The notes under the pieces: model-generated
Seen by the model: only the letters and a program-made list of their open reading frames with translations
What the model was told of the DNA's origin: nothing
The model's database searches: none
In this document: piece by piece, positions 2,128-12,941 of the stretch
How positions within the stretch are numbered: position 1 is the first letter of the stretch
How the letters are laid out: every line of letters begins with the position of its first letter
DNA from: Microcoleus sp. AS-A8
Lineage (GTDB): Bacteria; Cyanobacteriota; Cyanobacteriia; Cyanobacteriales; Coleofasciculaceae
Direction: 5' to 3'
Assembly (NCBI GenBank): GCA_039962225.1
Contig: JAMPKV010000010.1
Coordinates: 186,001-250,000, forward strand
Length of the DNA stretch: 64,000 nt
Position numbers and translations under genes: made by a program

Positions 2128-3414
2128 TCACACAGTTCGACCGCGATGCTCAGTCTTAATCCAATTCAATTTCTGTGGTTTTATACACAGGCTTAAAGCT
2201 GTCACAATCATCACTGGAATCCAATGCACCATGTAGAGAGAACCCTGGATAGTTGCCCACAGCAAAGACCATCCCCGTAATTTTTGATGTTGGTAAAGTC
2301 CGGCAATAAAACCAACCGTTACAATGAGGCTGAGTAGTGTCTGAAGTGGAAATAAAAGCGGATGATGGTTGTAAAAGATTGTCCAAAGCAAGTCAGGAAT
2401 GAGGGCGAGAGGTAGCAGGAATTGCAATAGAAAAAACAACATTAGATCGAGTTCTTTCGTCAAACCTAATGCAAGAATTTGGGGGAAATAATCCAGGTGA
2501 CGCTGATAGCCACCTTCCGCCCAACGACAGTGTTGATGCCAAAGCGCTCTCCAGGTTGTTACCCCTTCTTCCTGAATGGCTGGAACTGTGACAAACTCAA
2601 TTTCAGTACCTACTAAATAAAGTTTGAAGCACAAATCTAAATCATCAATTGTGTCTTCGCTCCAACCCTTACACTTTTCTAGCATTTCCCGACGCACTAA
2701 CATACCATTGCCCCGAAGCTCAGACATTCCTCCGACAGCAATTCGATGGGTTTGCAGATAAGCATCACAACTCATTTCCATCTGCTGGCAACGAGTTAAG
2801 AAATTGGTATCTGCATTCGAGATCGCTTTTCGCGCCTGCACCGCACCAATTGCCCTCTTCTGAAACAGAGGTACGGTTTGCCGCAGAAAATTGGCAGAAA
2901 GTTGAGCATCGGCATCGCAAATAAGCACAATCTCGCCCTGCGTGAAGGGAAAAACTGCATTGAGTGCCCCGGATTTACCTCCTTTTGATTCCCGTCGATG
3001 AACCTGTAACCCCGAAAATTGAGTTTGTAATTTCCTCAAAATTTGGGGGGTTTCATCAGTACTGCCGTCATCCACAATCCAGATATCCAGATGAGTGCTG
3101 GGATAGTTCAGGCAAAATAGGCTATGAACCACATCGGGCAAGACGGCGCTTTCATTTTTAGCGGGAACCAGAATCGAGACTTTGGGCAAATCGGCATCAC
3201 CCTCTACCCTGGGAGCGATCGCTTTTGCCATGAGCATCCGTAGCGTTTGAATCGTCAGGACTGCCGTTAATCCCACAATGAGCCACTGCGTTTGGGGTTG
3301 CCAGTGGAGCAAACTGACGAAACCCCAGACAAGTAGAACCACGAGGGTGGCTTTGAGGCGGCGATCGCGATGAACACTGACATTGTTACTTAGCGAATAG
3401 GGAGTTCTTCTCAC
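2128..3414 (-). CDS. Family 2 glycosyltransferase, membrane-bound, processive type
   Basis: I start this gene at GTG 3414, which shares its first base with the TAG stop of the upstream gene (TAGTG) and gives 428 residues. The longer open frame to 3519 lies inside the upstream gene and lacks protein-like sequence. Two N-terminal membrane segments precede a GT-A domain with VSILVPAKNE, WIVDDGSTD, DAD (about 167-169), IDDLDL (about 256-261) and QHCRW (about 294-298), the Q-x2-R-W motif of processive synthases such as PgaC, NodC or cellulose synthase. Three to four membrane segments follow. The donor sugar and product are unknown. It is co-transcribed with a deacylase-like enzyme, which suggests envelope glycan or glycolipid chemistry (inference). 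Confidence 0.88.
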   Translation of the reverse strand: MRRTPYSLSNNVSVHRDRRLKATLVVLLVWGFVSLLHWQPQTQWLIVGLTAVLTIQTLRMLMAKAIAPRVEGDADLPKVSILVPAKNESAVLPDVVHSLFCLNYPSTHLDIWIVDDGSTDETPQILRKLQTQFSGLQVHRRESKGGKSGALNAVFPFTQGEIVLICDADAQLSANFLRQTVPLFQKRAIGAVQARKAISNADTNFLTRCQQMEMSCDAYLQTHRIAVGGMSELRGNGMLVRREMLEKCKGWSEDTIDDLDLCFKLYLVGTEIEFVTVPAIQEEGVTTWRALWHQHCRWAEGGYQRHLDYFPQILALGLTKELDLMLFFLLQFLLPLALIPDLLWTIFYNHHPLLFPLQTLLSLIVTVGFIAGLYQHQKLRGWSLLWATIQGSLYMVHWIPVMIVTALSLCIKPQKLNWIKTEHRGRTV

Positions 3415-4061
3415 TAGATTTGCTCTACTTTCTCCATTTCTGGCTGAGCCTTGCGACGCCACAACAGCATCGTGACTGCCCCTAGCAGGATACCGCCCAC
3501 TCCTGCCGCAACCGCCCAAAGACGACCGGCTTGCTGGGCACCCATTAACACGGGATTATCCAGCAGGTTGGAAGAAAAATGCAGTGATTGAATAGTCCAA
3601 TTCCCCTGAAACTTTTGCAGCACGGCTGTCCATCGCATCGCCATCGTGGGTTTATTGCCATCTTTAAAATAAAATGTTGCGTTCGCATCTCCGTAGGAAA
3701 TGGCGGTTTCCGGGGAGAGAAACGTTCTGGGAGTATCCACCTTCGCCTCCATTTTGATGTCTTTAATCGAACTGGAGAACTGTTGATTCCAATACTTCTC
3801 AAACTCAGGCACTTTATGAAAAACTCGGTTATCAACCGTGGTAATCGTGAAGCTTGGATGCAAGTAAGGTTCAATTTTGGAAAAATCGCGAGTGTTAAGC
3901 GCTTGCAGAGCCATTTCCCGCGTGCGGATAATTGCATTAACCTCCTGTTGGTTAACATCAGCCCAAGCACATAGGGGTACATTCCAAATTGCCAGCAGGA
4001 GTAAAGCGACCCCAAGTATTTGACTGCATCGGTATCTGATTGACCGTTTGTGTTTTGTCAT
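3414..4061 (-). CDS. NTF2-like domain protein with signal peptide and C-terminal anchor
   Basis: A 215-residue protein. An N-terminal basic/hydrophobic stretch (about 1-33, ending AWA) looks like a signal peptide. Residues about 37-165 look like an NTF2/SnoaL/DUF4440 fold: helix VNAIIRTREMALQALNTRD, then HPSFTITTVDN and a W-rich last strand (WTAVLQKFQGNWTIQSLHFS). Residues about 180-200 form a membrane helix followed by WRRK and an acidic tail. It is likely anchored in the cytoplasmic membrane with the domain outside. It is the first gene of the four-gene minus operon and overlaps the glycosyltransferase by one base. NTF2-like domains often bind small ligands; catalysis is not indicated. Confidence 0.65.
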   Translation of the reverse strand: MTKHKRSIRYRCSQILGVALLLLAIWNVPLCAWADVNQQEVNAIIRTREMALQALNTRDFSKIEPYLHPSFTITTVDNRVFHKVPEFEKYWNQQFSSSIKDIKMEAKVDTPRTFLSPETAISYGDANATFYFKDGNKPTMAMRWTAVLQKFQGNWTIQSLHFSSNLLDNPVLMGAQQAGRLWAVAAGVGGILLGAVTMLLWRRKAQPEMEKVEQI

Positions 4062-4402: not shown

Positions 4403-5134
4403 ATGCCTATGCAGGCGCGACTGGTTGAAGTTCAACAATTGCTTGGGAGCGATCGCAACGCCATGTACTCCCTTCTCAATACCCATTTTGATGGAGTCAA
4501 TCCAGAACTATTTGAAACTGACCTAGAGCAGAAAAACTGGGTTATTCTCTTAGAAGATAAGGAAACAAAAACGCTCAAAGGCTTTTCCACCTTATTGGTT
4601 TACGAAACCCAGTTTGAGGGAGAAGTCCTGAGTGTCGTCTATTCTGGAGATACCATTGTAGACCCCAGTGCTTGGTCGAGTTCGCTCTTGCCTCGTGCCT
4701 GGATTGCCTCAATTCATTTTTTACGGGACAAGTATGCCAACGGCAAACTCTACTGGCTGCTCATTTCTTCCGGTTATCGTACCTACCGCTTTTTACCCAT
4801 TTTTTGGAAAGAGTTTTATCCTTGCTATGATACCCCCACGCCTCCCCGCATCCAGGCACTCATGCAATTCCTAGCTCACACCCATTTCGGCAATTGCTAT
4901 GACGAAAGCGCTGGAGTGGTTCGCTTTCCCCATCCCCAGGTTCTTCGAGAGAACTTGTGTGGCATACCTCAAGAACGGCTGAAAGATTCCCATATCCGTT
5001 TCTTTCAAACTAAAAATCCCGGCTATGAACAGGGAGATGAATTAGTCTGTTTGACAGAGATTAAGGAAGAAAATCTGACTAAAGCAGGTCGGCGCATGTG
5101 GTTTGCAGAAGCTTCCTTAGGAGTTGCGTCATGA
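4403..5134 (+). CDS. GNAT-like acyltransferase, first gene of oxygenase cluster
   Basis: A 243-residue soluble protein. The N-terminal half reads like a GNAT fold: a first helix (AMYSLLNTHFDGV), a strand with VILLEDKETKTLKGFSTLLV, then VVYSGDTIVDPSAW and a helix LLPRAWIASIHFLRD. The C-terminal half has no recognisable motif, and the usual acetyl-CoA signature R-x2-G-x-G/A is not obvious, so the acyl donor and even catalysis are uncertain. An in-frame TGA at 4373 limits the start; ATG 4403 or 4409 are both possible. Its stop overlaps the start of the Rieske gene in an ATGA at 5131. Position suggests it acylates or tailors a pathway intermediate (inference). Confidence 0.6.
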   Translation: MPMQARLVEVQQLLGSDRNAMYSLLNTHFDGVNPELFETDLEQKNWVILLEDKETKTLKGFSTLLVYETQFEGEVLSVVYSGDTIVDPSAWSSSLLPRAWIASIHFLRDKYANGKLYWLLISSGYRTYRFLPIFWKEFYPCYDTPTPPRIQALMQFLAHTHFGNCYDESAGVVRFPHPQVLRENLCGIPQERLKDSHIRFFQTKNPGYEQGDELVCLTEIKEENLTKAGRRMWFAEASLGVAS

Positions 5135-6174
5135 GAATGAATGGGCATTCACAGGCGGTTCGTTCAACTCATAAAACCCAGATTTTTAACCAGGAAGACC
5201 GCTTTATTGAAGGGTGGTATTGGGCAATTCCCTCTAGTAAACTCAAGATTGGTCAGGTTAAACCCGTAACCTTGCTAGGACGAGAATTAGCGATTTACCG
5301 GGGAACGGATAGGAAGGTAGTGGCGCTAGATGCTTACTGTCCGCACATGGGCGCGCATCTGGCAGAAGGAAAGGTTGAGGGGTGCCGTATCCGCTGTTTT
5401 TTTCACAATTGGCAGTTTGACGAGCAAGGAAAGTGCGTCGATACGCCATCTGTGGGTAAACCCGTCCCAGTTACCGTGCAAACTTGGCCCACGGCGGAAC
5501 AGTACGGTATGGTTTGGGTATGGACGGGGGAAACGCCACAACAACCCGTACCTTATGTACCAGAACTCCAAGATGAAGAGTGCGATAAAGCTTTTGGTTC
5601 TCGCTTTGTGAAGAACTGTCATCCTAATGTGTTGCTGATTAATGCAATTGATGCTCATCACTTCAATACTGTTCATAACCTGCCTCTACAAATTGTGTTT
5701 GAGAAGCGGGAATTAAATCAGAACGCAATTACTTTTAGCAATAAAACTAGGGGTGGGGAAGAGTCATTTCTAATCAAACTCCTTCGCCCGTTATACAAAA
5801 ATGAAGTCACTTACAGTATGTGCTATTGGTACGGCAGCACAGGTACCGTCACCTTAGGGCCAGACTTCTTGCACTTTCATATTATGTTTGCACTGCGGCT
5901 GATTGAGGGAGGAAAGACTGAAGGCAAAACTATTATGATTACGCGCAAGCGTCCTGGCTTGGGCGGGTGGATTTTTAACCGAATTGTACTCTGGCTAACT
6001 CAGCAGGTAGGGAATTACTTTGCTAAGGGTGATACTCAAGTTTTTCAGACAATTAAGTTTGATTTGAAGACTCCTACTCAAGCAGATCGGTCGATTTTGC
6101 AGTTCCTTGAACACGTAGAGGGGCAAAAACCCTTGCTATGGGGTACGTGGGAGAGTGCTAAGGAGAAAGCATGA
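5131..6174 (+). CDS. Rieske non-heme iron oxygenase (PAO-like), cluster gene 2
   Basis: The chosen start is ATG 5131, in an ATGA overlap with the preceding stop and 10 bases after TAGGAG; this gives 347 residues. The Rieske [2Fe-2S] ligands are Cys70-P-His72 and Cys89-F-F-His92. The mononuclear iron site is Asp174-x2-His177-x4-His182 (NAIDAHHFNTVH). This is the two-domain alpha-subunit architecture of pheophorbide a oxygenase and related cyanobacterial enzymes, which hydroxylate or desaturate with O2 and two electrons. No reductase is encoded nearby; the ferredoxin at 8426 is a plausible donor. The C-terminus lacks the membrane segment of plant PAO. The substrate is unknown. Confidence 0.88.
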   Translation: MRMNGHSQAVRSTHKTQIFNQEDRFIEGWYWAIPSSKLKIGQVKPVTLLGRELAIYRGTDRKVVALDAYCPHMGAHLAEGKVEGCRIRCFFHNWQFDEQGKCVDTPSVGKPVPVTVQTWPTAEQYGMVWVWTGETPQQPVPYVPELQDEECDKAFGSRFVKNCHPNVLLINAIDAHHFNTVHNLPLQIVFEKRELNQNAITFSNKTRGGEESFLIKLLRPLYKNEVTYSMCYWYGSTGTVTLGPDFLHFHIMFALRLIEGGKTEGKTIMITRKRPGLGGWIFNRIVLWLTQQVGNYFAKGDTQVFQTIKFDLKTPTQADRSILQFLEHVEGQKPLLWGTWESAKEKA

Positions 6175-7163
6175 ACACTGAGAACTACAAAGTACAGTCA
6201 AAACCAATCGATCAGACAGTAGGGGAAAATGTAGATTTAAACACCTTCTTGCAACCCTTAGCATTTGGGACGGCAGGGTTCGATTTACCGCACGTCGGAG
6301 AAGCGAATAAGTTGGGATGTGTGCTATCTGCGGCACTGGGGCAACGGTTAGGCAATGCCTCATCTTCAGAACGTAGCAACACTCTCTATTGGAATGCGGA
6401 CTACTTCGGATTGCACAAGGTGAAGGTCTTTCAGGACTCAAGCTTAGAGGAACAGGCCGCAATTTTGCAAATTGCTAATCGAGGATTACTGGAAGAGGCA
6501 TATTTTGTCGAAAAAGCTGGCATGGGCTATATGGCAAAAATGGTGTTGCTGGCAGAAACGACAGAGGAACGGATGCTTTATAGTTTGTTTGCTGCGAATG
6601 AAGCAACCCATCTGAGTCAGATTAGTGCTTTCCTGCCCGATCGCCCTGTTGGTACGAACGATACATTTTTGCGCTTCCTAGCAGATTTAGTCGAGAGTCA
6701 GGATAAAACGGTGCTGCTGTTTACGATCCAGCTAGTACTGGAGGGGTGGGGGTTGAGTCATTATCGGAGTCTAGCTAAAGGTTGTTGCGATCGCACCCTC
6801 AGCCGACTCCTCACCGGGTTCCTGCAAGACGAAGCACGGCATCACGGGACTGGACTAATTCTATTTGAGCAAACATCGGTTTCCTCGCAAAGTCGAGCCG
6901 TCATTGTCGAGACACTCTTGTGCTTTTTGCAGATGATTCGCGTAGGCCCTCAGCGAGTGGTGGAAGCAATTGCTCAAGTCAAAGGGGATTTGGCGCGATC
7001 GCAAAAAATCCGCATCTTGGAAGAACTCGGCACCGAAATCCACAGTGGCACTCGACTGCATCTTCTGCGTTCTTTGATGCGAGGTGAAGCTGCTGAAGCG
7101 ATCGTGCAAGCACTAGAAGCAAGAGGAGCTTTTGAACCTCTTCCGGCAAGTCAGTGTGTATAG
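6171..7163 (+). CDS. Ferritin-like diiron carboxylate protein, cluster gene 3
   Basis: A 330-residue helical protein starting in an ATGA overlap with the Rieske gene and preceded by AAGGAG. Four helices supply a two-fold diiron pattern: Glu109/Glu114 (LLEEAYFVEK), Glu144-x2-His147 (NEATH), Glu191 (LVLEGWGLSHY) and Glu221-x2-His224 (QDEARHH). This 2x(E...ExxH) layout is that of ferritin-like diiron oxygenases and oxidases. The last 90 residues are helical without a motif. It is longer than ferritin or rubrerythrin and is not a ribonucleotide reductase. I infer an O2-using tailoring enzyme in the same pathway as the two flanking oxygenases; the reaction is unknown. Confidence 0.7.
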   Translation: MNTENYKVQSKPIDQTVGENVDLNTFLQPLAFGTAGFDLPHVGEANKLGCVLSAALGQRLGNASSSERSNTLYWNADYFGLHKVKVFQDSSLEEQAAILQIANRGLLEEAYFVEKAGMGYMAKMVLLAETTEERMLYSLFAANEATHLSQISAFLPDRPVGTNDTFLRFLADLVESQDKTVLLFTIQLVLEGWGLSHYRSLAKGCCDRTLSRLLTGFLQDEARHHGTGLILFEQTSVSSQSRAVIVETLLCFLQMIRVGPQRVVEAIAQVKGDLARSQKIRILEELGTEIHSGTRLHLLRSLMRGEAAEAIVQALEARGAFEPLPASQCV

Positions 7164-7257
7164 CTAAGGCTAGGAATAAACAACAAAAATTAGCTTGGAT
7201 TTGCCAATCCCCATAAAGACGGGAAAGGTATTAATTAACTCATAAAACTTAAATCAA

Positions 7258-8433
7258 ATGCTTAAGAATACTATATTAGAAAATCAGAAGATTTATAAAA
7301 AAATCCACCTCAACTATACGCGCAATAAGCAGCAAGATCATACGACTTTAATGGATGAAGCCTCCCAAGCTTTTTGTTATGAAGATTGCAAAGACGAATA
7401 TTGGAATCCAGAAGAATTTTCCCTGCTTTACGGAACTCCTGTTTGGGAACAGGCAAGTCCCAGTCAGAGAATCATTTTAAATCAACTCTATTGGGTAGCT
7501 TACTATTCCCAAATCGTTTCTGCTGAAATTGCTACTATCTTTTTTAACCAAACCAGTGCCGCCGGACTCTACGCGCAGGAAGATTTTCGCTTAGTTTGCG
7601 ACATGCTGGATTTAGAATCCATACAAGAACGCGCTCACATTCACGCCTTTAGAACAATTTCTAACCAAGTCGAAACAGCTTTATTTGGGCGGCACATTTT
7701 TACTTATGCCATGCGTGGCCCTTTTACCGAAACGATGATTTATGCGGATACCAATGCTCTGAAAACTGGGTGGAAAAAACTTCAACTCCATTGCTTCGGA
7801 CTCTTATCTTCAGATAATGCATTTCTCGCCTGCCAATACTTTACCGTGCGGGGCATACGAACGCTAAATGGCAAGTTAGTTCAGCATAAGCTGAGTAATT
7901 ATTATCAAAAACATCCCAACCCAGAAGATGCTCCCATTCCCGCCAAAATTTCCTATTACCACTTTATGGATGAGAGCTTTCATTTCAATAGTTCTACAAT
8001 TCTTTCCCATGAAGTTGTAAAATGCCTCAAGCCTCCTACAGCCTTTGAACAATTCGTGGCTAATTTGGGACTGCGGGGTTGTCAGAGAGATCATTACCAT
8101 TTTTCAGCAGCAATTAATGGTATTTTTTGGTACGATCCTGCACTTTACTCAGCGATTTATCAAGTACTGCGATCGCCCATCTTTAATATGGACGATCGCG
8201 AAGCCAAAGAAATGATGCAATTGTGCTTCACACAAGAGTCGGAAGGGTTACAGCGAAGTTGCCAAACCCATCAAGAAGCGATCGCATCCTACAAGGTTTA
8301 TCTAGAAAAAGTAGATTACGCCTGGAAGAGTAATCGAGAAATGTCCTTAATGAACTCCAACTCAATACCCCAATATCTCGCCACTCAAAAGAAAGCATTG
8401 ACGATGTTTGAGAGAGGCAAAACGTATGAGTGA
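7258..8433 (+). CDS. AurF-like diiron oxygenase, cluster gene 4
   Basis: A 391-residue protein with ligands Glu90, Glu124-x2-His127 (ERAH) and His235-x3-Glu239-x2-His242 (HFMDESFH). The H-x3-E-x2-H on the last ligand helix is the distinctive arrangement of AurF (p-aminobenzoate N-oxygenase), where it reads His223/Glu227/His230, and the spacing between the first two motifs is also very close (34 against 35). The fourth carboxylate (AurF Glu196) is not obvious; the matching helix reads FLACQYFTVRG. AurF-type enzymes oxidise amines to nitro or hydroxylamine groups, but relatives also act on carbon. A 94-base gap separates it from the upstream gene; no strong ribosome site is seen. Family call by motif only. 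Confidence 0.65.
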   Translation: MLKNTILENQKIYKKIHLNYTRNKQQDHTTLMDEASQAFCYEDCKDEYWNPEEFSLLYGTPVWEQASPSQRIILNQLYWVAYYSQIVSAEIATIFFNQTSAAGLYAQEDFRLVCDMLDLESIQERAHIHAFRTISNQVETALFGRHIFTYAMRGPFTETMIYADTNALKTGWKKLQLHCFGLLSSDNAFLACQYFTVRGIRTLNGKLVQHKLSNYYQKHPNPEDAPIPAKISYYHFMDESFHFNSSTILSHEVVKCLKPPTAFEQFVANLGLRGCQRDHYHFSAAINGIFWYDPALYSAIYQVLRSPIFNMDDREAKEMMQLCFTQESEGLQRSCQTHQEAIASYKVYLEKVDYAWKSNREMSLMNSNSIPQYLATQKKALTMFERGKTYE

Positions 8434-8719
8434 GCAACGATGCATTGTCTCTTTTCCAGCCACTAGCTATTCACCCATTACCCTAAAAGCGCATCAAAAA
8501 TTGTCAGAACATCTTACAGTCCAAAATTCTCCAGTACTGTTTGGTTGTCGCACTGGCATTTGCGGAACTTGCCTCGTTTTAGTGAACGGCGAAACCTCAC
8601 CACCAAGTGCAGAGGAACGAGAAGTACTAGAAGTGCTAGCACCAGAACATACTAATGCCAGACTTGCCTGCCAGCTAGAACTTACAAGCAATTTAGAAAT
8701 TACACACTTAAAAGAATGA
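8426..8719 (+). CDS. 2Fe-2S ferredoxin, cluster gene 5
   Basis: A 97-residue plant-type [2Fe-2S] ferredoxin with ligands Cys41-x4-Cys46-x2-Cys49 and Cys82. ATG 8426 is preferred over the upstream in-frame ATG 8408 because it follows GAGAGG and leaves an 8-base overlap with the preceding stop. Compared with photosynthetic PetF it has a shorter, less acidic C-terminus and a diverged N-terminal strand, so it is probably a dedicated carrier. Its place between the AurF-like gene and the second Rieske gene suggests it delivers electrons to the cluster's oxygenases, taking them from the cell's ferredoxin-NADP reductase or photosystem I (inference). Confidence 0.88.
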   Translation: MSEQRCIVSFPATSYSPITLKAHQKLSEHLTVQNSPVLFGCRTGICGTCLVLVNGETSPPSAEEREVLEVLAPEHTNARLACQLELTSNLEITHLKE

Positions 8720-8870
8720 ACAAACCAGTATAAACCCCAAAATATTATTGCCATTTCCATCTATAAATCCCCTCAAAAACTCTGCGCTATTCTGCGCTTT
8801 ACTCCGCGCTCCTCTGCCTTAAAAAAATACATTATCCCCATACAAACCAATTCGATATAACCCATCCAAA
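8720..8870. repeat. Short spacer with CTCTGCG-type tandem repeat
   Basis: This 151-base gap inside the cluster holds three imperfect copies of a CT-rich unit (CTCTGCGCTATT, TCTGCGCTTTA, CTCCGCGCTCCTCTGCC) at about 8781-8818. The complementary unit (CAGAGG) recurs inside the element at 4141-4250. This is a short tandemly repeated repetitive sequence of the kind common in filamentous cyanobacteria. Confidence 0.55.
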
Positions 8871-9893
8871 ATGAAATTCGAGGATTTCTGGTACATCGTG
8901 GCACTCAGCGAAAAACTCCGATCAAATAAAGTTTTACAACGCACAGTATTAGGGGAATGGTTAGCAGTATTTCGAGGCGAAGATGGAAAAGTGGTGGCAT
9001 TGCGCGATCGCTGTATGCATCGTAACAGTCGCCTCTCTTGTGGTACAGTCCGCCAAGGGAAAATTCAGTGTCCCTATCATGGATGGGTATACGACCATAC
9101 TGGAAAAGTTTTGGCAGTTCCTTCAGAAGGAAAAGATTTCAAGCCTCTCTCTACTCGTCGAGCCAAATGTTACCCGACTAGGGAACAAGACGGATATATT
9201 TACGTACAACTCAGCGATAACAAGAGCGAAGAATTTGAACCCTTTGCCATGCCGCACTATCAGGAACCTGGATGGGAAACGGTGCGAGTAATTAACCGCT
9301 TTCGCAACAATGTAACGAACTGTGCCGAGAATTTCATCGACATTCCGCACACCGCTTTTGTCCATCCCGGTGTATTTCGTACTTCCCGTCAGCAACCGAT
9401 CAAAATGAGCGTAGAACGTCGTAATGGTTCGACGTTTGTGGAGTATCACAACGAAACAACTAATTTGGGATGGTACTCTCGCTTTCTGAATGGGAAAGGA
9501 TATGAAATTCGGCATACAGATAGTTTTCACATGCCAAATATTACCAGTGTGGAGTACGATATGGGATTGCATCGACGACTTTTCATCACCAGTCAATCCA
9601 TTCCTGAAACGGAGAACTCGACGCTGGTTTATACAGATGTGACCTATAACTATGGCATCTGGAATAAAATTGCTCGTCCCTTTGTGCGCTGGACGGCACA
9701 GCATATTATTCGTCAGGATGTCAAAATTTTAGATGTTCAAGGGGAAGCGATCGCAAAATATGGTTCCCACTTTACCAACACTCCCGCCGATACCATCCAC
9801 GTTTTTGTTGAGTCGATTCGTAACAAAATCGCCGCAGGAGAAGACCCTAGAAAACTTCCCGAACAATCGGTTGAAATCACATTTTGGGTATAA
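8871..9893 (+). CDS. Second Rieske non-heme iron oxygenase, cluster gene 6
   Basis: A 340-residue Rieske oxygenase only distantly like the first one. The cluster ligands are Cys48-M-His50 and Cys67-P-Y-His70; the iron site is Asp157-x2-His160-x4-His165 in ENFIDIPHTAFVH. Tight Rieske spacing and the FYWYxVA-type start (DFWYIVALSEKL) place it with single-component alpha subunits such as vanillate demethylase or cyanobacterial homologues. Two dissimilar Rieske enzymes in one transcription unit imply two separate oxidation steps or substrates. The downstream hydroxylase gene overlaps its 3' end. The start has no clear ribosome site, but the first residues match the family. Confidence 0.87.
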   Translation: MKFEDFWYIVALSEKLRSNKVLQRTVLGEWLAVFRGEDGKVVALRDRCMHRNSRLSCGTVRQGKIQCPYHGWVYDHTGKVLAVPSEGKDFKPLSTRRAKCYPTREQDGYIYVQLSDNKSEEFEPFAMPHYQEPGWETVRVINRFRNNVTNCAENFIDIPHTAFVHPGVFRTSRQQPIKMSVERRNGSTFVEYHNETTNLGWYSRFLNGKGYEIRHTDSFHMPNITSVEYDMGLHRRLFITSQSIPETENSTLVYTDVTYNYGIWNKIARPFVRWTAQHIIRQDVKILDVQGEAIAKYGSHFTNTPADTIHVFVESIRNKIAAGEDPRKLPEQSVEITFWV

Positions 9894-10636
9894 AAAAAGT
9901 GGAAAATATATTAATTTTTGCGGCCTTTACAGTATTAATAGGACTCACCATTGCTCATAAACCCAGTTGGGCAAAGTTACGCACAAAAAGCCGTGAAGAC
10001 TGGATTTTAGATGGGTTGGGTTTGCTGGTTCAAGGATTGCTCATTCCGATTCTTCAGATTGCGGTGGTTTATCAGCTATATCGGTACTTCCTACCCTTGC
10101 CGCAGGGATGCTTACATTTGCCTCAGGTTGCAACTTTCCTACTCAGTTTCATCTTGGTAGATTACCTCTACTACTGGAACCATCGCTGTTTACATAGTCG
10201 CTGGTTCTGGCATTTGCATCAGGTTCATCATACTGTCACGGATATGGATGTCCTGGGAACTTCCCGCAATTCCCTGTGGACAAGTTTTCTGATTATCTAC
10301 CTATGGATACATGCGCTGTTTCTCTACCTGTTGCATGACTCCACTGGATATCTTATAGGAGTTAGTATCACCGCAGCGTTAGATCTATGGCGGCACAGTC
10401 AATTAGCGATCGCACCTCAAAGTGGGCTTTTTCGCTTACTATCACCCTGGCTGATTTTGCCCCAAGATCATGCTTGGCATCATGCCAGCGATTCGGGTTG
10501 CAGGAATTACGGGGCAAATTTGAAAATCTGGGACAAATTACATGGAACTTACTATAACTGTGATGCCCCCCCTGCTTCTCTGGGTATTCAGACTACATTG
10601 ACCCTGACTCAAAAGCTACTCTATCCCCTAACATGA
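9884..10636 (+). CDS. Sterol desaturase/fatty acid hydroxylase family membrane oxygenase, cluster gene 7
   Basis: A 250-residue integral membrane protein with the histidine boxes His100-x3-His104, His112-x2-His115-His116 and His196-x2-His199-His200 of the FA_hydroxylase/sterol desaturase superfamily. Four to five hydrophobic segments are visible. The open frame uses TTG 9884 (10-base overlap with the Rieske stop) or GTG 9899. Family members hydroxylate or desaturate lipid, sterol, carotenoid or wax substrates at a diiron site in the membrane. This is the strongest hint that the cluster's substrate or product is lipophilic. It ends in an ATGA overlap with the acyltransferase gene. Confidence 0.88.
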   Translation: MGIKKVENILIFAAFTVLIGLTIAHKPSWAKLRTKSREDWILDGLGLLVQGLLIPILQIAVVYQLYRYFLPLPQGCLHLPQVATFLLSFILVDYLYYWNHRCLHSRWFWHLHQVHHTVTDMDVLGTSRNSLWTSFLIIYLWIHALFLYLLHDSTGYLIGVSITAALDLWRHSQLAIAPQSGLFRLLSPWLILPQDHAWHHASDSGCRNYGANLKIWDKLHGTYYNCDAPPASLGIQTTLTLTQKLLYPLT

Positions 10637-11310
10637 CGCTCCTGAGTAAAATCCTTGCCTACTTTTCTACCCTAATCATCCTGCTAACCATAGCCTCTTT
10701 CCTCTATCTGTGCGCTCATCCAGGGTTGGTCGGCGTGGGACTATTGCTGTTTTTCTTATACGGGTTTCCTGTGCTGATTTATCGCCTCCATCAGCGCTTC
10801 TATCCCGTCGAGGAAGGCATTAGCTATCTGTGCGGTAACGAGTATAGCCCTTGGTGGGGTAGCCATCAAATTCAGGTAATTTATATCGCCGTTCCGGCAT
10901 TGGAAGCCGTGCTACGACTCATTCCCGGTGCTTTTTCCTTGTGGTTGCGCCTCTGGGGGGCAAAAGTGGGTCAAAACGTATACTGGACACCTGGACTGGA
11001 AATTGCGGATCGGGGATTGTTGGAAATTGGCGATCGCGCTGTCTTTGGTCATCACATTGGCATCTACCCCCACATCATCAAACCCCGCAAACAAGACTTA
11101 ATGTTGTACGTCAAAAAAGTCAAGATTGGCAGTGATGTTTTCCTGGGGGCAGGTTCTCATTTTGGCCCCGGCGTTGTCGTCCCAGATGGCACTTATCTAC
11201 CTGTCGCCACTAACCTTTATCCTAATCAAGAAGCGAAATCATGCGCTGGTTCATCAAACTCTTTGAGCAACTTCTCGCCCCAAGCGCTGAACGCTTCCGA
11301 GACGCTTTAA
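10633..11310 (+). CDS. Hexapeptide-repeat (left-handed beta-helix) acyltransferase, membrane-anchored, cluster gene 8
   Basis: A 225-residue protein. Two N-terminal membrane helices (about 8-50) precede VEEGISYLCGNEYSPWWG and a left-handed beta-helix of hexapeptide units from about 105 (GAKVGQNVYWTPG, LEIGDRAVFGHHIGIYPH, VKIGSDVFLGAGSHFGPGV). The His pair in FGHHIG is a plausible catalytic site. Such proteins O- or N-acetylate or acylate small substrates. The last 22 residues (serine/asparagine-rich) overlap the GH3 gene by 70 bases and look like read-through rather than conserved fold. It starts in an ATGA overlap with the hydroxylase gene, so translational coupling is likely. Confidence 0.78.
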   Translation: MTLLSKILAYFSTLIILLTIASFLYLCAHPGLVGVGLLLFFLYGFPVLIYRLHQRFYPVEEGISYLCGNEYSPWWGSHQIQVIYIAVPALEAVLRLIPGAFSLWLRLWGAKVGQNVYWTPGLEIADRGLLEIGDRAVFGHHIGIYPHIIKPRKQDLMLYVKKVKIGSDVFLGAGSHFGPGVVVPDGTYLPVATNLYPNQEAKSCAGSSNSLSNFSPQALNASETL

Positions 11311-12941
11311 AACATCCCGAAAAGGCTCAAAAACGAGTGCAGCAGGAAATTTGCGATCGCCTTATCAAGAGCGAGTACGGCAAGTACCTGGGCATTCGCT
11401 CTCTCCAAGCTTGGCAACAAGTTCCGATTGTTGACTACGACGACCTCAAACCCTGGATTGATGGAGTAGGGGGACACAGCAGCAGGGGGACAGAGGGTAA
11501 ATCAATCACTCATCCATTACAGGCGCAACTCACTAGCGAACCCATCCTTTTTTACGAAAAAACCTCTGGAAGTCGCAGTGCCGCCAAATTGATACCCTAC
11601 ACCAAATCCCTGCGGCGTTCCTTTAATCACATGTTTTGTGTTTGGGCGCATGACCTAATCCGCAATGGCCCTGCTTTTTCAACAGGTAAAATTTACTTCT
11701 GCATTTCTCCCCAGTTCCAATACTGTTCGGATAAGACTGACCTAACCCCCCTAGCCCTCCTCACTAAAGCTCCGGTTCCCTACGAGGGAAGGGGGGAGTT
11801 AGACGCCCCTCTCCTACAAGGAGAGGGGTTGGGGGAGAGGTTAACCGAGAATGCCCCTAATCTCGATCATTCATCCTTACAAGATGACTCCGAATACCTC
11901 GATCGCTGGTTGAGGTGGCTGCTTCATCCCTTTCTAATTTCTCCTGGCTTAGTGCATCAGTTGAGAACGGCAGAGGAGTTTAAGCGGCAGTTATGTCTTG
12001 CCTTACTGCAAGCAGAAAAGCTAGAAACCATTTCAATTTGGAGTCCTACTTTTCTCAAGATTCATCTCAATTACATCCAAACGCACCGCACAGAGTTGCG
12101 GCAGTCGTTGAAAATATCCGCAGAACGCGATCGCCTACTGTGCGAACCGGAAATTCCTTGGACGAAACTGTGGCCTGAGTTGAAGCTAATTTCCTGCTGG
12201 GATAGCGCCTGCGCCGCCGATCCAGCTCAAGTTCTACATGATCTATTTCCGGGTGTCATGGTGCAGGGTAAAGGACTTTTAGCCACAGAAGCGCCGATGA
12301 CGATTCCCCTAATTGCCGCACAAGGATGCGTTCCCGTACTGGATGAAGTGTTCTTTGAGTTTGAGGATGAATCGGGGGAAATTTATCTGCTGCAAGACCT
12401 GCAAATTGGACAGGAATACACCATCATTCTTTCGCAAAAGGGAGGGCTTTACCGCTATCGAATTGGCGATCGCGTGCGTGTTACCCATTACTACCTCAAT
12501 ACCCCATGCCTGGAATTTTTAGGGCGCGATTCCTCCATCAGTGATTTAGTAGGTGAAAAGCTACACGAAGAATTTGTCAGCGAGGCACTCAAAGAATTAG
12601 CGTTAGAAGGCACATCGTTTCAGTGCTTAGTGCCTACGATAATTCCGGAAGCGCATTATATTCTCTTACTGGATAAGGTGAATACACCTACTAATGCGAT
12701 TGCTGAGCAATTAGAACAATTCCTACATCAGTCTCCCCACTATCGCCATGCCCGACTGCTCGGTCAACTCTCTTCAGTTCAGGTTTTAGTCTCTCAGCAA
12801 ATACCTGAAATATTGACCAGCCAACGAATAGCGTCTGGGAAAAAGTGGGGAGATATTAAACACTCGCTTTTGTGCGAGCGACCGATTGAAGAAGACTTAC
12901 TGGTCAGGTTGAAGCAAGCCGATTCTTTGCAACAATCTTAA
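11241..12941 (+). CDS. GH3 family acyl-acid amido synthetase-like enzyme, cluster gene 9
   Basis: A 566-residue member of the GH3 auxin-responsive promoter family, ATP-dependent enzymes that adenylate a carboxylate and join it to an amino acid. Visible motifs are the phosphate-binding YEKTSGSRSAAK (105-116), GLLATEAPM (345-353) and YRYRIGD (404-410), then LEFLGRDSSISDLVGEKL. Bacterial substrates are mostly unknown. Two stretches do not look like GH3 protein: residues about 76-87 and about 167-205, encoded by low-complexity DNA and by a dispersed palindromic repeat; both keep the frame. It closes the cluster; no terminator hairpin is obvious after it. Amide-bond formation to a cluster-made acid is a reasonable inference. 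Confidence 0.85.
   Translation: MRWFIKLFEQLLAPSAERFRDALKHPEKAQKRVQQEICDRLIKSEYGKYLGIRSLQAWQQVPIVDYDDLKPWIDGVGGHSSRGTEGKSITHPLQAQLTSEPILFYEKTSGSRSAAKLIPYTKSLRRSFNHMFCVWAHDLIRNGPAFSTGKIYFCISPQFQYCSDKTDLTPLALLTKAPVPYEGRGELDAPLLQGEGLGERLTENAPNLDHSSLQDDSEYLDRWLRWLLHPFLISPGLVHQLRTAEEFKRQLCLALLQAEKLETISIWSPTFLKIHLNYIQTHRTELRQSLKISAERDRLLCEPEIPWTKLWPELKLISCWDSACAADPAQVLHDLFPGVMVQGKGLLATEAPMTIPLIAAQGCVPVLDEVFFEFEDESGEIYLLQDLQIGQEYTIILSQKGGLYRYRIGDRVRVTHYYLNTPCLEFLGRDSSISDLVGEKLHEEFVSEALKELALEGTSFQCLVPTIIPEAHYILLLDKVNTPTNAIAEQLEQFLHQSPHYRHARLLGQLSSVQVLVSQQIPEILTSQRIASGKKWGDIKHSLLCERPIEEDLLVRLKQADSLQQS
11738..11855 (+). repeat. Dispersed palindromic repeat inserted in frame in the GH3 gene
   Basis: This segment contains, at 11756-11776, a 21-base stretch that is the exact reverse complement of 24330-24350 and 24400-24420. 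It also contains a short hairpin (TCTCCTACAAGGAGA, around 11812-11828) that recurs at about 19866-19882. It codes for a G/L/P-rich insertion between otherwise GH3-like sequence and has no stop codon. Confidence 0.8.

Follow-up and report, generated by a model that had tools for sequence, protein, structure and literature searches.

A CylC-type diiron halogenase relative with a clade-wide active-site glutamine in a Rieske-containing gene cluster

A conserved gene cluster rich in oxygenases

The analyzed window, a 64,000-nucleotide stretch of the Microcoleus sp. AS-A8 genome (contig JAMPKV010000010.1, positions 186,001 to 250,000), contains a series of plus-strand genes (4403-12941) that overlap or lie closely spaced. 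Among them is a single open frame of 391 amino acids (7258-8433, +), termed P0001, which homologue searches, alignment, profile matching, and the literature point to as a CylC-type dimetal-carboxylate halogenase homologue of a "Rieske-cluster" subfamily. CylC-family diiron enzymes chlorinate unactivated carbons of fatty chains. Conservation of the neighboring genes was counted over 52 loci with full flanks.

The operon opens with an acyltransferase-like protein of weak GNAT similarity (4403-5134, +), which is conserved (44/52 full loci) yet almost without a family match: alone it has no Pfam match, and 4 of 21 relatives weakly match PF13527 (GNAT). It is followed by Rieske oxygenase A (5131-6174, +; PF00355, 84 bits; 51/52) and a second ferritin-like diiron protein (6171-7163, +; 50/52), the Pfam matches of which (Ferritin_2, MiaE) are all sub-threshold, Ferritin_2 reaching 22.4 bits for a cut-off of 24.7. 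This protein has no solved relative by sequence, its residues E114, E144xxH147, E191, and E221xxH224 are invariant, and it possibly represents a new oxygenase family. The end of the P0001 gene is overlapped by a gene for a 2Fe-2S ferredoxin (8408-8719, +, with an in-frame ATG at 8426; PF00111, 33.2 bits, cut-off 21), and a ferredoxin adjoins the CylC-type gene in 50 of the 52 full loci.

Further downstream lie Rieske oxygenase B, with a VanA-type C-terminal domain (8871-9893, +; PF00355, 86 bits; PF19112, 45 bits), and a membrane protein of the fatty-acid-hydroxylase/sterol-desaturase family (9884-10636, +; PF04116, 86 bits), each kept in 46/52 full loci; an OlsE-like model scores the latter at 68 bits, far under its cut-off. 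A left-handed beta-helix (hexapeptide) acyltransferase-like protein (10633-11310, +; 43/52), whose profile matches galactoside and maltose O-acetyltransferases, precedes a GH3-family acyl-acid-amido synthetase (11241-12941, +; 39/52). Members of the GH3 family couple amines to adenylated acyl groups (PMC12493201). The GH3 protein matches PF03321, PF23571, and PF23572 above cut-off, and its profile matches the structures of the amide synthetases JAR1 and GH3.12. An assignment as ornithine-lipid synthetase was rejected, as the OlsH model yields 26 bits where its cut-off is 620 and indicates the GH3 superfamily only. Apart from the GH3 protein, no adenylating enzyme was found in the cluster. Across 81 loci, a search for acyl-AMP ligase (FAAL) and acyl carrier protein (ACP) motifs came up empty: the eight sequences matching the AMP motif all proved to be GH3 proteins, and those resembling ACP were short antisense frames without ACP character.

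The divergent arm encodes a SnoaL-like protein (3414-4061, -; PF13474, 32.5 bits) and a family-2 glycosyltransferase (2128-3519, -; PF13641 and PF00535 above cut-off), both of which are also adjacent in loci L071 and L092, as well as an amidohydrolase (403-2112, -; PF07969, 65 bits) that lies beside the cluster in 14/52 full loci and in Elusimicrobia and Chloracidobacterium loci. An Mpo1-like gene of the 2-hydroxy fatty acid dioxygenase family (1-389, -) extends about 30 bases past the left window edge, and beyond it, outside the window, lies a third Rieske gene (-1119 to -88 relative to the window, -). The Mpo1-like gene occurs in 23 related loci and the third Rieske gene, which is common in such loci, in 57. 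At locus L105, the cluster is split into divergent halves, with the acyltransferase to the CylC-type gene on one strand and the ferredoxin to GH3 on the other.

With two Rieske genes in the window and one just to its left, a single CylC homologue, and a PF04116 protein, the P0001 locus falls into the "Rieske-containing" class of CylC clusters described by Eusebio et al. in 2021. In the accessible text of that survey (PMC8406957), this class is the commonest CylC context (36/95) and is tied to no product, and its absence of carrier proteins is already remarked upon. The class as described there shares with the P0001 cluster the single CylC homologue in a separate clade, two to four Rieske proteins, a sterol-desaturase/fatty-acid-hydroxylase protein, acyltransferases, and an occurrence mainly in Nostocales and Oscillatoriales with some non-cyanobacterial members; the comparison yielded no decisive difference. 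Our analysis adds to the class the GH3 amide synthetase, the Mpo1-like protein, and a clade-wide glutamine at position 209, none of which is discussed in the accessible survey text. A search of freely accessible later papers found no product of a Rieske cluster, no assayed enzyme of its clade, and no chlorinated product.

The same survey text describes PriA-containing CylC loci of Synechocystis. Loci L028 and L029 in our set encode Rieske oxygenase A and the ferritin-like protein along with the CylC-type protein, a pared-down form of the P0001 cluster set, with the remaining genes absent from the short stretch covered. They are probably the same locus type.

Family placement of P0001

Homologue searches retrieved close relatives of P0001 from many cyanobacteria, together with longer homologues of about 460-550 amino acids at approximately 30% identity. 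Of 17 loci encoding such longer CylC-type proteins, 14 have an acyl-AMP ligase motif in the vicinity, a neighborhood that the accessible text of PMC8406957 gives as the context of CylC-type halogenases. A profile of the P0001 family aligned with one built from 18 CylC-type proteins of these 17 loci (a reference set chosen by motif and context that does not include the CylC sequence itself) over 385 columns with an hhalign probability of 100% (E 3e-94). Compared to AurF-type proteins proper, represented by a thin alignment of 3 cyanobacterial sequences, the probability was 0.3%, i.e., no detectable profile similarity to AurF/CmlI. One of these three, L133, matches the CmlI-type structure 5HYG (E 5e-42) and AurF 3CHH (E 8e-37). 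A search of PDB sequences with P0001 and the family profile as queries returned nothing relevant.

Maximum-likelihood analysis places the P0001 family in one clade (support 98/96) beside other CylC-type proteins, and a single clade within it unites the members from Myxococcota, Planctomycetota, Elusimicrobiota, and Acidobacteriota. A reading of P0001 made from sequence alone had expected a match to the AurF family PF11583. This is indeed the only Pfam match, and it is shared by 45 of 46 relatives (best E 7e-7), but for P0001 it amounts to 23.0 bits and falls under the curated cut-off of 29.6. Judged by its sequence relationships, P0001 thus belongs to the CylC dimetal-carboxylate halogenase family, away from AurF proper, and joins there a subfamily of diiron halogenase relatives that is known but biochemically unexplored.

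Several further proteins were encountered alongside. L031 and L032 (L132) encode CylC-type proteins that share about 35% identity with P0001 and have glutamate at the position of residue 209; a ferredoxin-like match lies close by, and the other cluster genes are absent from the stretch covered. L115 carries a tandem pair of different CylC homologues (5339-8302) near a protein with an acyl-AMP ligase motif. A separate AurF-like lineage on a very long branch (L136:1045-2418 and L137:1348-2412), above the PF11583 cut-off, has the motifs EEYDH and HFMDEARH or HFIDEARH, in which glutamate, not aspartate or glutamine, precedes the ligand glutamate.

The predicted metal site

The sequence-only reading had noted an AurF-like arrangement of Glu90, Glu124-x2-His127, and His235-x3-Glu239-x2-His242, and this pattern holds up well. 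The six positions are fixed in an alignment of 46/46 homologues and invariant across 66 sequences comprising 44 family members and 22 more distant paralogues; this invariance indicates that the pattern is real and selected rather than a chance occurrence. E90 (7525-7527, +), the equivalent of AurF E101, is a predicted iron ligand. The ExxQExxH motif (7615-7638, +; residues 120-127, ESIQERAH) contributes the predicted ligands E124 and H127 and, in the second sphere, Q123, all three invariant in the 66 sequences. The HxxDExxH motif (7960-7983, +; residues 235-242, HFMDESFH), likewise invariant in this set, contributes the predicted ligands H235, E239, and H242 along with the second-sphere residue D238. 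Both motifs are present in 102/102 homologues. The alignments support a ferritin-like site with an AurF-like three-histidine arrangement, presumably occupied by two irons. The surroundings of this site differ as well, with F243-N244 next to H242 in place of two threonines.

The additional histidine on the last ligand helix, which the earlier reading took as diagnostic of N-oxygenation, loses this meaning, since the CylC dimetal halogenases are themselves defined by this three-histidine set (PMC12101540). In NocO, a homologue of CylC, nine residues are reported as essential, seven of them within QExxH and HxxDExxH (Wang et al. 2025, PMC12101540). P0001 shares with CylC and NocO both of these motifs, the E90 equivalent, and the second-sphere aspartate. 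It differs in its shorter length, its approximately 30% identity to CylC-type proteins, and a locus where GH3 stands in place of an acyl-AMP ligase or carrier protein motif. NocO was assayed with ferredoxin and ferredoxin reductase (PMC12101540), whereas a ferredoxin dependence of P0001 is suggested by the overlapping gene.

With AurF and CmlI (PDB 3CHH, 5HYG), P0001 has in common the ferritin-like diiron superfamily, the three-histidine pattern, and HxxDExxH. Q123, the residue preceding E124, stands at the position of AurF Asp135, which is replaced by glutamine in the halogenases (PMC12101540); the AurF relatives L133-L135 carry aspartate before the ligand glutamate (DEAYH, DEAGH, and DEGGH). 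According to a 2026 preprint, the combination of ExxQExxH and HxxDExxH separates these halogenases from AurF and its homologues, which are without the first motif (PMC12871659).

A clade-wide glutamine at position 209

The ninth active-site residue, NocO E252, corresponds in P0001 to a glutamine, a minority state that is fixed in the clade. Q209 (7882-7884, +; in the context GKLVQH) aligns with AurF E196 and corresponds through its spacing to NocO E252. This position is glutamine in 44/44 family members and glutamate in 22/22 paralogues. The paralogue glutamate lies 30 residues ahead of the HxxDExxH aspartate, the same spacing as AurF E196-D226 and NocO E252-D282 (PMC12101540), and the glutamate of L133, a true AurF/CmlI relative, also aligns with Q209. 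The loop between Q209 and the motif aspartate is one residue shorter in P0001 than in the glutamate-bearing paralogues. The earlier suspicion that a Glu196 equivalent is missing and that the iron site may differ there is borne out, but the segment FLACQYF to which it pointed is the wrong place: this column (Q193) varies between V, L, M, and Q among paralogues and was ruled out.

In NocO, Glu252 (AurF Glu196) is predicted to leave the metal sphere and thereby free a chloride site, and an E252A variant is inactive (PMC12101540). The accessible text of the same study mentions a small subset of homologues with glutamine at this position, which it still counts within the halogenase subfamily; plausibly, this subset is the Gln209 clade of P0001.

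Two genomes with a Gln209-type gene (G218 and G259) carry a second, glutamate-type CylC homologue (L130:6487-7692 and L131:5964-7217). No acyl-AMP ligase motif lies near these genes, which by eye adjoin an apparent ABC exporter and glycosyltransferase, neighbors that suggest a glycolipid.

Proposed role and alternative readings

We consider it somewhat probable that P0001 is a CylC-type diiron enzyme of the Rieske-cluster subfamily that performs ferredoxin-fed halogenation of an unactivated C-H bond in a carrier-free fatty chain. The reduced ferredoxin encoded by the overlapping gene would deliver electrons to the diiron site formed by E90, E124, H127, H235, E239, and H242, where O2 would be activated and a C-H bond of the unactivated fatty chain broken. 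The resulting carbon radical would recombine with a halide bound at the coordination position taken by Glu196 in AurF, for which Gln209 would provide no carboxylate. With GH3 present and no ACP or FAAL motif found in 81 loci, a free fatty acid or a GH3-made acyl amide is the probable substrate, and a carrier-bound acyl chain is disfavored. The product would be oxidized further by the other oxygenases of the cluster.

Halogenation is favored by the retention of the metal site and of the halogenase-specific glutamine, and by the inability of Gln209 to provide the carboxylate that AurF has at its seventh position. The same residue also feeds a competing interpretation, which we regard as possible though doubtful: the Gln209 subfamily may have the CylC fold, have lost or never had halide chemistry, and hydroxylate or desaturate a fatty chain in a pathway to a multiply oxidized lipid. 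The glutamate equivalent to Gln209 is essential in NocO (PMC12101540), so that the strict split between glutamine in the family (44/44) and glutamate in the paralogues (22/22) could mean another reaction. Moreover, six further oxygenase-type proteins are encoded in the cluster, and a context so full of hydroxylation-type enzymes does not require a halide step. The F243-N244 exchange beside H242 also counts against halogenation, as does the literature search, which found neither an assayed enzyme of the clade nor a chlorinated product. On the other hand, the rest of the metal-site residues are kept, as is the halogenase-specific Gln123, and the halogenase survey, in its accessible text, counts the small glutamine-bearing subset within the halogenase subfamily (PMC12101540). 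Of the C-H functionalizations that P0001 might catalyze, chlorination is the most likely and hydroxylation a possibility.

The proposal that P0001 converts an amine to a hydroxylamine, nitro, or azoxy group in the manner of AurF fares far worse. PF11583 as the sole Pfam match of P0001 and one seen in 45/46 relatives, the three-histidine ligand pattern, and the common ferritin-like superfamily would fit such an enzyme. However, the Pfam score lies under the cut-off, the comparison with the AurF-proper profile (3 sequences) fails, and glutamines stand in place of both AurF Asp135 and E196. Sequence, profile, and tree all place the protein with the CylC-type clade, the ExxQExxH motif that AurF lacks is present, and the neighbors are of lipid type, with no cluster gene pointing to amine N-oxidation. 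We therefore judge an AurF-like N-oxygenase very improbable; N-oxygenation by P0001 is unlikely, and the proposed amine-to-nitro chemistry is probably wrong. Least probable of all appears a non-catalytic or structural relative that binds metal without turnover: the literature search found no activity for any subfamily member, in keeping with such a role, but the first-sphere ligands are all invariant, including in homologues from four other phyla, and the gene co-occurs almost constantly with the ferredoxin and oxygenases.

Returning to halogenation, we tentatively suggest for the subfamily as a whole that the Gln209 clade may constitute a carrier-protein-independent branch of the diiron halogenase family, spread over cyanobacteria and at least four other phyla and using free fatty acids or acyl amides made by GH3 as substrates, in which the fixed glutamate-to-glutamine exchange would retune the site to bind halide or to carry out another C-H reaction. 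The Rieske-containing cluster class is common in cyanobacteria and reaches Myxococcota, Planctomycetota, Elusimicrobiota, and Acidobacteriota. If P0001 does halogenate with no need of a carrier protein, assays would be simpler than for CylC, and the natural glutamate/glutamine split at a single active-site position allows one to test directly what distinguishes halogenating from oxygenating diiron enzymes.
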